The notes: generated by a model not told the origin, from the sequence alone. 64,000 nucleotides of DNA from a virus (IMGVR_UViG_3300043256_000348:1-64000); one strand, 5' to 3'; shown: positions 18,484-58,880, counted from the first letter of the stretch. Program-made: numbers and translations.

Positions 18484-18991
18484 TGGCTGCTTTATGATGC
18501 AGGCCGTGGACTTAGCTCGCCGCAACCGTGATCCCAATCGCAGGAAAGCAATCGCCGCGTTGATCGTCAAAGACGGCATGGTGATTGCCAGCGGCGTGCG
18601 GACGACGCGGAAAGATCAAGGCAGCGGACTAATAGATACGTGCCACGCCGAGGACGCGGCTCTACAAGTCGCGGGGCATGGTAGTCGCGGCAGTACCTTG
18701 TACACAACGCTTGCCCCTTGTGCGGAGCGGGCGAACCTGAAGTGTGATGTCCCGAAGCGACCCTGCTGTCAACTGGTGGCTGATGCAGGAGTGGCCCGCG
18801 TCGTAATAGGGGCGTTCGACGAGGACTTCGGCAAGGGCGGCGTCGAGTACCTCATCGAACGCGGCGTATGCGTGGAGCAATATCCTCTTCCTGAGTCAGT
18901 GGTGCAGATGCTGCTGGGCAAAGAGCGTGGGCGCCCCGTGGAGGGGCCTGGTAACCAATCTGCTGACAAGAGGTTCCTGGACGAAAGATAA
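18455..18991 (+). CDS. Cytidine/deoxycytidylate-deaminase-fold enzyme
   Basis: 178 residues, ATG 18455 with GGGGAGTGG upstream. The zinc motif is CHAEDAAL (His64, Glu66) plus PCAERANLKC and a following PCC. The extra residues between the cysteines resemble the RibD/guanine-type deaminase subgroup more than plain dCMP deaminase. The presence of a deaminase within a sugar operon suggests either nucleotide supply or a base- or sugar-modification step. Confidence 0.7.
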   Translation: MIPTTNLADDGCFMMQAVDLARRNRDPNRRKAIAALIVKDGMVIASGVRTTRKDQGSGLIDTCHAEDAALQVAGHGSRGSTLYTTLAPCAERANLKCDVPKRPCCQLVADAGVARVVIGAFDEDFGKGGVEYLIERGVCVEQYPLPESVVQMLLGKERGRPVEGPGNQSADKRFLDER

Positions 18992-19407
18992 TGGCGATTG
19001 CTTGCACCGGAAAACTCGGCTGGGTTTCGCCGCTCCAAGGTCCGGGGCTGGAGATCAAGAGCTTTAACATCTCCGATGACCGCATGACGGTGATACTCGC
19101 AGGATGCTTTGAGGGGGAGGTTGGTGCTCGCGTGACCGTAACCATACCTGGGGCTACGCTCGTGTCTTACGGGATAGTTGAACAGGCGAATGTATTTCAT
19201 CGGGTTATGGAGGGAGTTTTAGAGACCGAGGTCACGATAGTCCTAAGCGACGTAATGGTAACGGGCACGGGAGCCGAGCCTCCGGGGGGCATGCTGACTC
19301 CAATCAACCCCCAACCTCCGGCCGCACCGGAGCCCGCACCGAAACCTACACCGGCCGCCGAACCGATACGCCTGGACAACAAGCGGCTAATCACACTGGA
19401 GGATTGA
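18991..19407 (+). CDS. Hypothetical protein with Pro/Ala-rich tail
   Basis: 138 residues; the start overlaps the deaminase stop (TAATG). Residues 1-90 are beta-rich. Residues 95-125 are a Pro/Ala/Glu linker (NPQPPAAPEPAPKPTPAAEP) before a short charged end. The layout suggests a small domain tethered to something else. No family recognised. Confidence 0.55.
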   Translation: MAIACTGKLGWVSPLQGPGLEIKSFNISDDRMTVILAGCFEGEVGARVTVTIPGATLVSYGIVEQANVFHRVMEGVLETEVTIVLSDVMVTGTGAEPPGGMLTPINPQPPAAPEPAPKPTPAAEPIRLDNKRLITLED

Positions 19408-54198: not shown

Positions 54199-54450
54199 GT
54201 GAGTGAGCATATGAGCGCGTACGTCGCAGCTACGCACTGCGAGACACACGCCCAGGCAGCCCGAGAGGGTCGCTATCTACAGAATGGCTGTATCATCTGC
54301 GAGGCAGCCAAACTGGAGCAGAGCCATGCCGACCTGCTGGCCGCGTGCGAGGCAACCCTCGCCTGCGTGGGGCCACGCTTCGACACTTACCGACAACTCA
54401 CTGCCGCCATCGCCAAAGCCAAGAAACCGGAGGGCAAAGATGCTGATTGA
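54199..54450 (+). CDS. Small Cys/His-rich protein
   Basis: 83 residues; GTG 54199 preferred over ATG 54211 because CAGGAGGAT lies 6 nt upstream. THCETHAQAAREGRYLQNGCIICEAAKLEQSHADLL is a possible zinc site followed by a helix, a layout frequent in phage early genes. Overlaps the AAA+ gene start. Confidence 0.5.
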   Translation: MSEHMSAYVAATHCETHAQAAREGRYLQNGCIICEAAKLEQSHADLLAACEATLACVGPRFDTYRQLTAAIAKAKKPEGKDAD

Positions 54451-55999
54451 GCAACTCAAACACGCACGCCGGGTGAGCGTGCCGCTCGTGGCGGTGCAGA
54501 CGCCAGACCCGGCCGCGACGATGCGAGTGATCGCGTCGGGACTGAACGGCAAGCCAGCACCTGTGGTGGCCTGGGACATCGTCCGGGGCTGCTGGCCGGT
54601 CAACGAGGCAGGCCAAGAGGTCGCGGCCCTCACAGGAAGCGGCGATGACGACCAGACCATCAGGCAGCCGGTGGCTTACCTGGAGTACGCGGTCAAGTTC
54701 CCGCCACGCACGATAGCATTCGCGTGCAACGCGCAAGAGTATATGGACGACCCCGCGTTCCGGCAAGGGATTTGGAACCTCCGGGACGAGTTCAAGCGGG
54801 ACCGGCGGATGCTGATCCTGCTGGCCCCGTCGATCGACCTGCCCGCGTCACTGAAGGACGACGTGGTGATGCTCGACGAATCCCTGCCGGACGGCGAGGT
54901 GCTACAGAAGATCGTCTGCGAGCAAGACGCGGCTGCCAATGCCTGCCAGGCGTGTGGCGGGGGCGGCACCGATGCCGGACTGGAGTGCGAGGACTGCCAC
55001 GGGAGCGGCCAGAGCAATCGGAAGTCCGCCGACGAAGAGACTGTCGACCAGGCGGTGGCAGCGACGCAGGGGCTCTCGGCCTTCGCCGCCGAGCAGGCCG
55101 TGGCGATGTCGCTGCGTCCCGAGGGGATCGACCTGGACCACCTCTGGGAGTCGAAGCGGCGGCAGATCGAGCAGACGCCGGGGCTGTCGGTCTGGCGGGG
55201 CGGTGAGACATTCGCCAGTGTCGGCGGGTTGGCTCATATCAAGGAATTCATCGGGCGGGTGCTGACCGGCAAGCGGAAGCCTACTGCTATCGTGATCGTC
55301 GATGAGTTGGAAAAAATGATTGCCGGAGCCGAAGGGCAAATGAGCGATTCGTCCGGCGTATCGCAAGGTATCTTGCAGGCGTTACTGACGCACATGCAAG
55401 ATCACGAATCCCGCGGGCTGATTTTAGTAGGCCCCCCAGGTACAGGGAAGAGTCTTGTCGCAAAGGCCACCGGCGGAGAAGCGGGCATACCGACGATTTC
55501 CTGGGATAGCAACGCGATGAAAGGATCGCTAGTCGGAGAATCGGAGGGGAATGTTCGGACAGGTCTGAAGGTTATCTCTGCGGTCAGTGGCGACCATACG
55601 TTATGGGTTGCAACGTGCAACTCAGTTCGCGGAATCCCAACGGCACTGCGTCGCAGGTTTTCATATGGGACTTACTACGTCGATCTTCCGGATAGCACAG
55701 AGAAGACTGCTATCTGGAAATACTACCTTGCCGACTACGGAATCAAGTCACGCAAGTGTCCCGATGATGCGGGCTGGACGGGTGCGGAAATCAAAACGTG
55801 CTGTGAACTTTCGGATGATCTAGGCTGTACATTAAAAGAGGCGGCTGGCTACTTCGTCCCCGTGGCGAAGGCCATGCCGGACGAGATCGAGAAGCTACAG
55901 GCAGAGGCGGACGGCAAGTACATGTCGGCCAGCCACCCGTCGGTGTATCGCCGCGACGTTCGCGACGACGGTGGGCGGGGCCGGAAAATCCAGGTATAA
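54440..55999 (+). CDS. Ycf46-like AAA+ ATPase with Walker B-like motif before Walker A
   Basis: 519 residues. Residues 1-165 match the N-terminal domain of Ycf46-type ATPases (FPPRTIAFACNAQEYM ... RMLILLAPSIDLPASL). A DnaJ-like zinc module follows (C169, C172, C183, C186). Then TAIVIVDELEKMIAG (282-296), a complete Walker B-like strand with DE, precedes GPPGTGKS (331-338, Walker A). After it come GESE (366-369), sensor-1 ATCNS (391-395) and RRRF (404-407). Between GESE and sensor 1, where Walker B normally lies, only about 20 residues remain. It is neighbour to DUF1257 and DUF2997 genes, as Ycf46 is to Ycf35. Composition drops in GC from about 55290 to 55840. Confidence 0.8.
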   Translation: MLIEQLKHARRVSVPLVAVQTPDPAATMRVIASGLNGKPAPVVAWDIVRGCWPVNEAGQEVAALTGSGDDDQTIRQPVAYLEYAVKFPPRTIAFACNAQEYMDDPAFRQGIWNLRDEFKRDRRMLILLAPSIDLPASLKDDVVMLDESLPDGEVLQKIVCEQDAAANACQACGGGGTDAGLECEDCHGSGQSNRKSADEETVDQAVAATQGLSAFAAEQAVAMSLRPEGIDLDHLWESKRRQIEQTPGLSVWRGGETFASVGGLAHIKEFIGRVLTGKRKPTAIVIVDELEKMIAGAEGQMSDSSGVSQGILQALLTHMQDHESRGLILVGPPGTGKSLVAKATGGEAGIPTISWDSNAMKGSLVGESEGNVRTGLKVISAVSGDHTLWVATCNSVRGIPTALRRRFSYGTYYVDLPDSTEKTAIWKYYLADYGIKSRKCPDDAGWTGAEIKTCCELSDDLGCTLKEAAGYFVPVAKAMPDEIEKLQAEADGKYMSASHPSVYRRDVRDDGGRGRKIQV

Positions 56000-56014
56000 T
56001 GAAAGGGATCATCA

Positions 56015-56296
56015 ATGGTCGTCTGGAAGTTTGTAATTCCCATGCGCGATGTATTGTCTATTCCGATGCCAATCGGTGCGGTAATCCTGCACGTAGACTG
56101 CCAGGGAGTGAAGCCGCTGCTTTGGGCACTTGTTGATCCAGAGTCGCCTGATGAACGTCGCGACTTTTGTTTCGTGAGAACGGGGCATCCTATCGAACCT
56201 CCCTCGCCGGGGCGGCAACTGGTGCATAGGGGCAGCATGCTGATGAGTCAAGGAGCATTGGTTTGCCACTTGTTTGAATATGCGAAAAGAGACTGA
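56015..56296 (+). CDS. DUF7352-like small phage protein
   Basis: 93 residues from ATG 56015 (GAAAGGG upstream; TATAAT at 55995-56000). WKFVIPMRDVLSIPMPIGAVILHVDCQ ... LLWALVDPES ... FVRTGHPIE is the pattern of a small beta-rich protein found widely in phages and plasmids. Function unknown. A GGCAT/ATGCC hairpin follows at 56304-56317. Confidence 0.6.
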   Translation: MVVWKFVIPMRDVLSIPMPIGAVILHVDCQGVKPLLWALVDPESPDERRDFCFVRTGHPIEPPSPGRQLVHRGSMLMSQGALVCHLFEYAKRD

Positions 56297-56319
56297 ACCG
56301 ACAAGGCATGCGGATGCCG

Positions 56320-56348
56320 TTTAACACTTCCTGAAACCGCGTTATAAT
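56320..56348 (+). promoter_or_regulatory. Promoter before the 26-residue microprotein
   Basis: TTTAAC (56320-56325), 17-nt spacer, TATAAT (56343-56348). Start of transcription falls about 4 nt before the ATG at 56359, though TGGAGGG at 56348-56354 would then be upstream of or at the 5' end. Confidence 0.6.
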
Positions 56349-56358
56349 GGAGGGTGCT

Positions 56359-56439
56359 ATGCGACTCACACTAGACATCCTCGTGCTGGCGACGGCGACG
56401 CTCGTAGCGACGCTGACGTTGCTGGCCGGACTGCACTAA
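56359..56439 (+). CDS. 26-residue transmembrane microprotein
   Basis: ATG 56359 with GGAGGG 5 nt upstream. The product is one hydrophobic helix (LDILVLATATLVATLTLLAGL). Too short for ordinary gene finding, but it has its own promoter and ribosome site. Single-helix phage peptides often act on host membrane proteins; no function can be inferred. Confidence 0.5.
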   Translation: MRLTLDILVLATATLVATLTLLAGLH

Positions 56440-56478
56440 CCAGGGGCCGCTGTGGCCCCGCAAACCGGAGGGCAAAGG

Positions 56479-56640
56479 ATGAGCGCGTATACTGCAATTT
56501 TCTGTTTAATTGGTGCCACCTTATCTGTGGGGTATGGCGTTGCCGGAATTCTCGCATTAGCCAGGGCAAAATACGACAAGGCCGCTGCTTTCCTCGCCGC
56601 GGCTTGCTTATTCGAGATCATAGTAAGTCGATGGCTTTGA
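56479..56640 (+). CDS. 53-residue two-helix membrane protein
   Basis: ATG 56479 with CCGGAGGGCAAAGG upstream. Two hydrophobic segments (4-25 and 36-50) separated by ARAKYDKA. Probably inner membrane; role unknown. Confidence 0.5.
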   Translation: MSAYTAIFCLIGATLSVGYGVAGILALARAKYDKAAAFLAAACLFEIIVSRWL

Positions 56641-56657
56641 AAGGAGGGCAATCGACG

Positions 56658-57551
56658 ATGGCTGACCAAGCACAAGCACTCCAAAACGGAACGCTTATCC
56701 TGGAGGTGATCTTCCACAAGCCGGGGATCACGCGTCGCGGCGACCTTGGCAAGGTCGAGACCGCCGCCGATAAGAAGCAGCTCGGCCTGTCGAAGAAGAT
56801 CATCGACTCGCCCCAGTACAGGGCGGTGCTGCACGTCGCGAACGCCTGCCGCGAGTACCTCAAAAGCCTGGAGTTGGAGGCCCCGTTCAAGACCGGGCGG
56901 CACCTGCTGCCGCTGAAGCTGCTGGAGCGTGCGTACACCCGCGTGGAGGAAGCCGAGGTCGCGTACCACGAGGCGGCGGACGCATTCATTGCCGCGTACC
57001 CGGCGCAGGTCCAGGCCGCCAGGCAGTCGCTAGCCGACCAGTTCGACGACGGCGACTACCCCGGCCTGGAGACTCTGCGAGAGCAATTCTGGGTCGAGCG
57101 CCGGGTCACGAGCTGGGACACGCCCGGCGAGGCGAAGATCGGCGAGTACCTGTACGAGAAGGAAAAGAGCCGCGTGGCCGAGGAGCTGTCAAGCGTGGCC
57201 GAGGACGCGAAGTTGGCCCTCCGCGAGGGACTGCGAATCCTCACCGGCAAGCTGGCCGAAAGTTTGGGGCCGAAGCCGGACGGCAAGCGGCGGCGGCTGA
57301 GCGAGTCCACCGTAAAGAAGGTCACCGACTGGCTGGCATCATTCGACGCCCGCAACGTGCTGGGCGACGCGGACCTGGGGGCCGTGGTGACCGACCTCAA
57401 GAGCGTGCTGAACAATCGCGGCGTGAAGGAACTCCGGACGAACGAAGGGATGCGAGCCGCCGTCAAGACCGAGCTGGAGCAGACAGGCAAGGCGCTGGAG
57501 GCCCTGCTTGTGGACGTGCCCGCACGGGCGATCAGCTTGGGGGACGAGTGA
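56658..57551 (+). CDS. Conserved helical protein of the AAA+/DUF1257 module
   Basis: 297 residues from ATG 56658 (GAAAGGAGG upstream). Almost entirely helical, with an opening ILEVIFHKPGITRRGDLGKV and later WVERRVTSWDTPGEAKIGEYLYEKEKSRVAEELSS. It has the size and position of DUF3150-like partners of phage AAA+ ATPases, but I cannot confirm the family. Expressed with the ATPase and likely a component of its complex. Confidence 0.5.
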   Translation: MADQAQALQNGTLILEVIFHKPGITRRGDLGKVETAADKKQLGLSKKIIDSPQYRAVLHVANACREYLKSLELEAPFKTGRHLLPLKLLERAYTRVEEAEVAYHEAADAFIAAYPAQVQAARQSLADQFDDGDYPGLETLREQFWVERRVTSWDTPGEAKIGEYLYEKEKSRVAEELSSVAEDAKLALREGLRILTGKLAESLGPKPDGKRRRLSESTVKKVTDWLASFDARNVLGDADLGAVVTDLKSVLNNRGVKELRTNEGMRAAVKTELEQTGKALEALLVDVPARAISLGDE

Positions 57552-57769
57552 TGGAGCAGGATGAGATCAACAAAGCCCGGCTGGTACTGGCCCTTAAACG
57601 CGAGCTTGACGTGTGGGAGTGTGATGACGAACAGGTGCTCGCAGCTACAAAGGGGACGTTTTTTAGGGCGCGAGTAGAGGTGCGGCTAGCTGTAGGCGAT
57701 CTGTGCCGCGTACTCCGAAACGAGCTTCAGAACATCCTCATTGCAATCGGTAAATGGTTTCGGCAATGA
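57551..57769 (+). CDS. Small helical protein, paralogue of the 31939 gene
   Basis: 72 residues; ATG 57551 overlaps the previous stop. VLALKRELDVWECDDEQVLAATKGTFFRARVEVRLAVGDLCRVLRNEL aligns along its length with the 31939-32193 product. Both end in GKW. Function unknown. Confidence 0.55.
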   Translation: MEQDEINKARLVLALKRELDVWECDDEQVLAATKGTFFRARVEVRLAVGDLCRVLRNELQNILIAIGKWFRQ

Positions 57770-57816
57770 CCAGATTCCTATTCAGCCCGATAACCGTAGG
57801 CGTCGGCCGTCCTCAG

Positions 57817-57856
57817 CGGCAATGTCGGGTGGGGCGAGTTGCCCCTGACATCGCCG
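57817..57856 (+). ncRNA. Long hairpin in the leader of the DUF1257 gene
   Basis: CGGC (57817-57820), ATGTC (57822-57826) and GGGGC (57831-57835) pair in order with GCCCC (57841-57845), GACAT (57847-57851) and GCCG (57853-57856). The result is a 14-bp interrupted hairpin with a 5-nt loop. The 180 nt 57770-57950 hold no convincing gene; a 60-codon frame there is Arg-rich and without homologue-like features. May regulate DUF1257 translation. Confidence 0.45.
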
Positions 57857-57950
57857 ATCAGCCGATGGGTAACGGCCGTGAAATCGACCGTCGGCTCCTT
57901 ACTTCAACGACACGAGGCTGGGCGACCGGCCGCAACCGGAGGGCGTAACC

Positions 57951-58403
57951 ATCTCGCACGTAGCTCTACTCGACCTGACTATTGACTCGCTCGACACGCT
58001 CGCTAAGGCGTGCGAGGCGATGGGCTTCACGTTCGATCGTGAAGGGACCAACTGGAAATGGTACGGGCGCTGGGTTGGAGATTACAACGTCAAAGACGCC
58101 GCGTACAATCAGGGCATCGCGGTAGAGCGGTACGGCACGTCCGACGCGGGCGTGATCCGTGTCCCTGGTGCCGCGTATGAAGTCGGCGTCTACAAGTCGC
58201 CGAACGAGCCGGGCAAGTACCGGCTGGTCTACGATAACTTCTCGGCGGGCAAGGGACTGCACGACAGGTGCGGCCCCGGGCTCGGCCTGCTGAAGCAGCG
58301 CTATGCCGCCGAGCGAAGCAAGAAAGAAATGAAAAAGGCTGGCTGGCGTGTCCGCGAACAGAAACAAGACGACGGGCAACTGCGGCTCGTCTGCACAAGG
58401 TAA
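57951..58403 (+). CDS. DUF1257 (Ycf35-like) protein with apparent ATC start
   Basis: 150 residues if initiated at ATC 57951, which has CCGGAGGGCG 7 nt upstream and is followed by SHVALLDLTIDSLDTLAKACEAMG, the conserved N terminus of DUF1257 proteins (they normally begin M-S-H). The rest fits too: WYGRWVGDY, VIRVPGAAYEVGVYK, YRLVYDNF and LGLLKQRYAAE. The only ATG (58020) would delete 23 conserved residues. DUF1257 proteins accompany Ycf46-type ATPases in cyanobacteria, plastids and phages; biochemical role unknown. Confidence 0.8.
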   Translation: MSHVALLDLTIDSLDTLAKACEAMGFTFDREGTNWKWYGRWVGDYNVKDAAYNQGIAVERYGTSDAGVIRVPGAAYEVGVYKSPNEPGKYRLVYDNFSAGKGLHDRCGPGLGLLKQRYAAERSKKEMKKAGWRVREQKQDDGQLRLVCTR

Positions 58404-58407
58404 AATC

Positions 58408-58713
58408 ATGGACCGCAACACCTTACGCAGAGCACTGGCCCGCGTGCCATACTATATGCGGCAAGGCGTGCTGGACTACCTGTATCAGGGCTGCCCGCCC
58501 GGCGACTTCCTGCGGGCCGTGTTAGAAAACGATCTTCACTTGGCCGGCTTGCAGGCGGACAACGAAAACCAAAGGGCTCTCATTGATTGGGTTGCCGTAC
58601 TGGACGCATTGCCATTGACGATCTGGGGCAGCCGAAAGAAGGTCGACGCCCATCTGGCCAGCCACATCCTTCGTAAACAACGAGAGGAGCAAGAAGCGTC
58701 ATGCAAAAGGTAA
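58408..58713 (+). CDS. Conserved phage protein
   Basis: 101 residues from ATG 58408. RVPYYMRQGVLDYLYQGCPPGDFLRAVLENDLHLAGLQADNENQRAL and IWGSRKKVDAHL are recurrent in a family of small phage proteins of unknown role. It overlaps the DUF2997 gene by 13 nt. Confidence 0.6.
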   Translation: MDRNTLRRALARVPYYMRQGVLDYLYQGCPPGDFLRAVLENDLHLAGLQADNENQRALIDWVAVLDALPLTIWGSRKKVDAHLASHILRKQREEQEASCKR

Positions 58714-58880
58714 CCATCACCATCGACACGTCAGGCAGCCCCAAGATCGAGGTCGAGGGCGTCGCCGGGCCGGAGTGCAATACCGCGACCGAGGCCCTGG
58801 AGAAGGCCCTTGGCGAGGTCCGCTCGGACAAGTTGACGGCCGACTTCCATCGACGGGAGCGTGCCCGTGTCAAGCATTGA
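58701..58880 (+). CDS. DUF2997 protein
   Basis: 59 residues from ATG 58701. VTITIDTSGSPKIEVEGVAGPECNTATEALEKALGEV has the hallmark of DUF2997: two strands, the EGV.G..C motif and a helix ending LG. DUF2997 genes lie next to DUF1257 and Ycf46-like genes, so this completes the three-part module here. Confidence 0.78.
   Translation: MQKVTITIDTSGSPKIEVEGVAGPECNTATEALEKALGEVRSDKLTADFHRRERARVKH

Follow-up and report, generated by a model that had tools for sequence, protein, structure and literature searches.

In cyanobacteria, the genes duf2997, ycf35 and fed7 form a cluster (PMC4284462). Phages and plasmids (Rhizobium phage RHph_I4, IncC) encode Ycf46-like AAA+ ATPases with an N-domain, AAA+ blocks in the canonical order, a C-terminal “SAS/PAS” region and DUF1257/DUF2997 neighbours. 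Here we describe a related locus in a viral DNA stretch of 64,000 nucleotides (IMGVR_UViG_3300043256_000348:1-64000, hereafter the window), which belongs to a virus record of 92,947 bases. The window encodes a Ycf46-like ATPase, whose AAA+ core has almost certainly been rearranged by the internal exchange of two blocks, together with DUF1257, DUF2997 and DUF3150-like proteins.

The module shares DUF1257 and DUF2997 with the cyanobacterial cluster and Ycf46; there, however, a ferredoxin stands in place of the DUF3150-like protein, and the ATPase of a Leptolyngbya plasmid is canonical. The window ATPase has the domains and neighbours of the phage and plasmid proteins named above but differs in block order and in Box VII, which reads RKGRxDE or similar in those proteins and RRRF in the window. 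A plasmid of Candidatus Manganitrophus (L139) carries the same four families, yet its ATPase has Walker A followed by Walker B. Cdc48/p97, Rix7 and the classic AAA proteins share Walker A, Walker B, sensor 1 and the arginine finger, but in canonical order and in tandem active domains. Among P-loop NTPases, the circularly permuted GTPases RsgA/YjeQ and YlqF have reordered motifs and are still active. These are TRAFAC GTPases rather than AAA+ proteins, and the likeness implies no homology. The open-licence PubMed Central literature yielded no relevant report on permuted AAA, P-loop or Walker order, and nothing on a permuted AAA+ module under DUF3150 and DUF2997. The ATPase thus appears to represent a so far unreported topological variant of AAA+ within a little-studied module. 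The features of the module are as follows.

54440..55999, plus strand: permuted Ycf46-like AAA+ ATPase, 519 amino acids (P0001); Pfam AAA, 9.9e-16, in a broken match; relatives with the same order
55283..55408, plus strand: block W, residues 282-323, with the Walker B strand IVIVDE, its helix and the DSSG loop; from block profiles and the exchange test
55409..55594, plus strand: block A, residues 324-385, with the P-loop strand, Walker A, strand 2 and the GESE helix; from phmmer, the exchange test, profiles and residue counts
55598..55660, plus strand: sensor 1 strand (ATCN, Asn394) and arginine-finger-like RRRF (404-407), directly after block A; Asn394 and Arg406 invariant
55973..55996, plus strand: ATPase C-terminal tail GRGRKIQV (R-x-phi-x-phi); from tail statistics
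56658..57551, plus strand: DUF3150-like helical partner, 297 amino acids, C-terminal tail PARAISLGDE; from family Pfam matches and neighbourhood counts
57951..58403, plus strand: DUF1257 (Ycf35-like) protein, 150 amino acids, probable ATC start after GGAGGG; Pfam 4.4e-5 and the start in relative L003
58701..58880, plus strand: DUF2997 protein, 59 amino acids; Pfam 8.4e-14

The original prediction, made from the sequence alone, had placed IVIVDE before GPPGTGKS, followed by GESE, ATCNS and RRRF, and these positions are exact (284-289, 331-338, 366-369, 391-395 and 404-407, respectively). The Walker B strand and its helix (282-323) are thus N-terminal to Walker A, and sensor 1 comes next after the Walker A segment. 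Profile searches reflect this arrangement. The best stretch matched by Pfam AAA covers just the first 53 profile positions (residues 327-379), while the same profile matches the Manganitrophus protein of normal order in one piece (positions 1-130). In a phmmer search against the PDB, the Walker A segment of Cdc48 (chain positions 527-578) aligns to residues 323-374, and its later Walker B segment (588-638) falls, in reversed order, on residues 282-331, where it precedes the Walker A match or overlaps its beginning.

As a test for a REARRANGEMENT, blocks 282-323 and 324-385 were exchanged on paper, and 20 permuted proteins were scored in native and exchanged form against a profile of the AAA core of seven canonical relatives. 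The exchange raised the best single match by 49.6 to 89.7 bits (mean 71) and produced one continuous hit in all 20 proteins; 927 control exchanges elsewhere changed the score by -4.3 bits on average and by 48.7 bits at most. Residue counts agree: the P-loop lysine and the sensor 1 asparagine are 55-63 residues apart in permuted proteins and 95-104 in those canonical relatives that allowed a measurement, in which the Walker B glutamate always lies 54 residues past the P-loop lysine. An AlphaFold2 model of the ATPase (mean predicted local distance difference test (pLDDT) 84.8, predicted template modelling score 0.71) has a secondary structure that follows the reordered pattern.

The same order recurs in a large set of environmental phages. 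Among the tblastn hits were canonical relatives in Aeromonas HJ05, Rhizobium I4, Agrobacterium JP1, Rhodobacter RcDurkin and a streptococcal satellite, whereas the cultured phage Tunturi_3 has the permuted order. Two IMG/VR scans yielded 23 relatives and 80 of 122, respectively. The permuted total is at least 85 distinct proteins. Block profiles classified 85 distinct proteins as permuted and 23 as canonical. Every complete IMG/VR relative, at about 31-100% identity to the window protein, was permuted, although the search patterns were taken from permuted alignments and the survey is uninformative on how common the canonical order is. Judged by these 85 sequences with one order and invariant residues, chance is excluded as the source of the motif order.

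The original prediction of a circularly permuted core holds insofar as the AAA+ core is reordered, but the change is a transposition of segments within the domain. The N-domain and the lid are in their usual places, two adjacent internal blocks are swapped, and there is no joining of old termini with creation of new ones, as in strict circular permutation. Likewise, the protein departs from the topology of the classic AAA family (PF00004), in which Walker A comes first, followed by Walker B and sensor 1: in all 85 proteins block W, whose canonical place is after block A, matches its profile ahead of block A. The hallmarks of the AAA+ superfamily (additional strand catalytic glutamate (ASCE) P-loop proteins) are present in the 85 proteins: Walker A, an hhhhDE Walker B, a polar sensor 1 residue and an arginine finger. 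The proposed tie to Ycf46 is borne out by tblastn alignments that cover 73-82% of the query against canonical phage relatives, and by Foldseek, whose best matches in BFVD are named ycf46 (E 3e-26, TMq 0.59-0.66). With its homologous N-domain and AAA core and this fold match, the ATPase is classed as a Ycf46-like AAA+ protein. A Foldseek search of the PDB indicated AAA kinship with the more distant p97 and Rix7 (E about 1e-12); these alignments are sequential and hence silent on strand order.

Lys337, Glu289, Asn394 and Arg406 are invariant across the 85 permuted proteins, and residue 288 is Asp in 80 and Glu in five. The absence of a normal Walker B after Walker A, as originally noted, extends to the family: an acid pair was sought at 370-390 in the 85 sequences and not found, nor was any other conserved acid pair between Walker A and sensor 1. 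It is very probable from this conservation that the permuted protein is an active ATPase. Alternatively, it might be a pseudo-ATPase, whose rearranged core folds but at best binds nucleotide, its role being to scaffold the partners. The P-loop glycine before the lysine (Gly336) is Ala or Ser in 41 of the 85 proteins, and five members have EE instead of DE, as such a scaffold might. Yet pseudo-enzymes usually shed catalytic residues piecemeal, and the four invariant residues persist in 85 divergent proteins, which renders this alternative unlikely.

The partners of the ATPase are as constant as its motif order. Among 65 permuted loci with enough flanking DNA, a DUF3150-like protein is encoded in 64, DUF1257 in 63 and DUF2997 in 62; the order ATPase-DUF1257-DUF2997-DUF3150 is the commonest (36 loci), followed by that of the window (20 loci). 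Walker order and gene neighbourhood, whose co-occurrence the original prediction had proposed to examine, go together in nearly all of these 65 loci, which upholds its conserved four-part set. In the window, both predicted partners score above their Pfam cut-offs: DUF2997 (PF11211) clearly (51.6 bits, cut-off 24.1, E 8.4e-14), and DUF1257 (PF06868) just so (24.1 bits, cut-off 22.2, E 4.4e-5). The DUF1257 gene is longer than the open reading frame with a standard start and probably begins at the ATC codon at 57951-57953 behind GGAGGG, where the close relative L003 has ATG (MSHVAL). The 297-residue helical protein, previously noted as encoded in the same block, can be specified further. Pfam DUF3150 (PF11348) matches 12 of the 23 members of its family (best 1.6e-9), and on these family matches it is tentatively assigned to DUF3150; the window copy itself is below threshold. 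Its AlphaFold2 model (mean pLDDT 89.2) had no fold match in the PDB with E below 0.1. In Tunturi_3, the DUF3150-like partner (gp96, L004:9690-10649) is annotated as “HNH endonuclease” but has no Pfam HNH match, and the DUF3150 gene of the Manganitrophus plasmid (L139:6824-7710) is apparently split by a frameshift into two open reading frames. The four proteins probably form a complex.

Most canonical phage loci also encode DUF1257 and DUF2997, but with a different second protein, beta-rich by look. This protein was considered as a DUF3150-like homologue and rejected (hhalign probability 0.1), and the partner slot is thus filled by unrelated proteins. A remote DUF3150-like protein is encoded at three of the canonical loci, L114, L116 and L117 (hhalign E 5.5e-10; Pfam 6.2e-7 for L114). 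On IncC and Aeromonas plasmids the partner is a protein with apparent transmembrane segments, on Rhodococcus and Paenarthrobacter plasmids a transmembrane/helix-hairpin-helix protein plus a radical-SAM protein, and on the Leptolyngbya plasmid Ycf34. Some of these neighbours would fit a machine in which the motor, DUF1257 and DUF2997 insert or handle a metal or iron-sulfur (Fe-S) cofactor, similar to the chelatase AAA+ systems. A radical-SAM/4Fe-4S gene adjoins DUF2997 on Rhodococcus, Paenarthrobacter and Paenibacillus plasmids, the Ycf34 gene adjoins the Leptolyngbya ATPase, the cyanobacterial cluster includes fed7 (PMC4284462), and His-rich DUF2997 C-termini (at least 5 His in the last 25 residues) occur in 29 of 77 permuted loci versus 2 of 27 others. 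However, the window module has no identified ferredoxin-type or radical-SAM gene next to it, although phage neighbours were not scanned systematically for Fe-S motifs, and in phages DUF3150-like or beta-rich proteins take the place of such partners. A cofactor machine is rather improbable.

What unrelated partners do share is a C-terminal tail, R-x-phi-x-phi. It ends 57 of 79 distinct DUF3150-like proteins, 13 of 17 members of the beta-rich second-protein family and 44 of 104 ATPases, compared to a background of 83 in 1865 other open reading frames, and is nearly absent from DUF1257 (4 of 95) and DUF2997 (0 of 95). Among clusters at 50% identity, the tail is found in 69% for DUF3150-like proteins, 75% for the beta-rich protein and 41% for permuted ATPases, the background being 4.5%. 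In plasmid loci retrieved once the motif was already set down (IncC, Aeromonas, Rhodococcus, Paenarthrobacter), both the ATPase and an unrelated partner carry it: the IncC pair ends in GSGRKLAIED and PGKRKIILD, the Rhodococcus pair in RGGRTFEF and PGRRLEF. Most simply, the tail would serve as a docking strand or client tag that the constant components of the machine recognize, a reading to which we give slightly less than even credence. Tails of this type also end further open reading frames near the ATPase (in L068, L099, L072, L073, L081, L094, L078 and L087, and L146:7073-7603), with RRVIQLG, RRKITFDK, LRVITLD and PGKRKVILD as examples. Far from the module, a 138-residue protein of unassigned family (window 18991-19407) ends in NKRLITLED.

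These observations can be combined into a model. A Ycf46-type AAA+ motor, in which the segments [P-loop, strand 2, GESE helix] and [Walker B strand and helix] were exchanged once, would adopt the usual AAA+ sheet, differently connected, and assemble into a functional ATPase ring. DUF1257 and DUF2997 would be the constant adaptors; lineage-specific partners, here the DUF3150-like protein, would dock or be engaged via the R-x-phi-x-phi tail and be remodelled or assembled using ATP during infection. We consider this explanation as a whole reasonably probable, its biological function being conjectural. A bolder version, in which an active Walker-B-first core of single origin is widespread in phages and drives tag-guided remodelling, with DUF1257/DUF2997 recognizing the tail of unrelated partners in phages, a satellite and conjugative plasmids, is possible but leans to the doubtful side. 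Several points weigh against such a model. The tail motif was spotted post hoc, canonical phage ATPases are not enriched for it (1.2 of 14 clusters), the cyanobacterial plasmid ATPases examined are devoid of it, and the replacement of Gly336 may reduce activity. If the model applies, the tail provides a handle, and the phage and plasmid versions would make the role of DUF1257/DUF2997 in the cyanobacterial and plastid Ycf46/Ycf35 set testable in simple systems.

The genomic surroundings might also point to a replication-linked factor, such as a loader or remodeller of replication proteins. The window module is flanked by genes for a DNA helicase, a ParB-like protein, a thioredoxin-domain protein and a primase/helicase, with minor tail and sugar genes further upstream, and in several phages genes for a DnaB-like helicase, a primase or a helicase are close to the module. 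Nevertheless, relatives reside on IncC, Aeromonas and Thermovibrio plasmids, those of IncC and Thermovibrio near secretion-type genes, and a DNA-binding domain was not found; a role in replication is quite unlikely.

The origin of the rearrangement was traced in a maximum-likelihood tree of 59 cores (quick search; support solely from the Shimodaira-Hasegawa-like approximate likelihood ratio test, SH-aLRT), whose blocks had been brought into one common order and whose rows exclude chromosomal and plastid Ycf46. The 29 permuted rows form one clade (SH-aLRT 100), whose sister comprises the ATPases of the Candidatus Manganitrophus and Thermovibrio plasmids (98), both of normal order. Since the Manganitrophus plasmid encodes AAA-DUF1257-DUF2997-DUF3150 with canonical blocks, the single permuted clade and a sister with the same partners imply that the rearrangement most likely occurred once, in a pre-existing module. 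This constellation, with motifs reordered and catalytic residues kept, amounts to a natural experiment on the tolerance of the AAA+ fold and the origin of permutation. The exchange could stem from tandem duplication of the A-W segment, after which the first A and the last W were lost; no relic in the form of a second block A or W copy scored above 3 bits in any of 108 proteins. It is very improbable that Walker A instead gained an unrelated DE-bearing strand in front of it while the true Walker B disappeared, because the entire block (DE[IL]EK, DSSG, helix, LLTxMQ) corresponds to the canonical Walker B block and restores the continuous match when moved. An assembly or frameshift artefact can practically be discarded, given independent records from many samples, a cultured phage genome (PP885686) and identities of 31-100%.

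A further permuted copy, accompanied by a DUF3150-like protein, is located on a contig of a Nitrospira metagenome-assembled genome (L035, LNDU01000031.1), either a provirus or a stray viral contig; DUF1257 and DUF2997 were not found near it. Within the window ATPase gene, third-position GC falls from 0.84 to 0.62 at 55283-55996 (Walker B block to stop), a step absent from L003 (0.86/0.85), which suggests recent recombination of the 3' half. Residues 169-195 of P0001 (54944-55024) form a DnaJ-type CxxCxGxG zinc-finger-like insert, which is shared by L003, L019 and L021 and missing in most aligned relatives. Finally, two canonical phage ATPases of about 850 residues (L113, L115) harbour an apparent intein inside the P-loop (GPPG/C...HN/TGKS).

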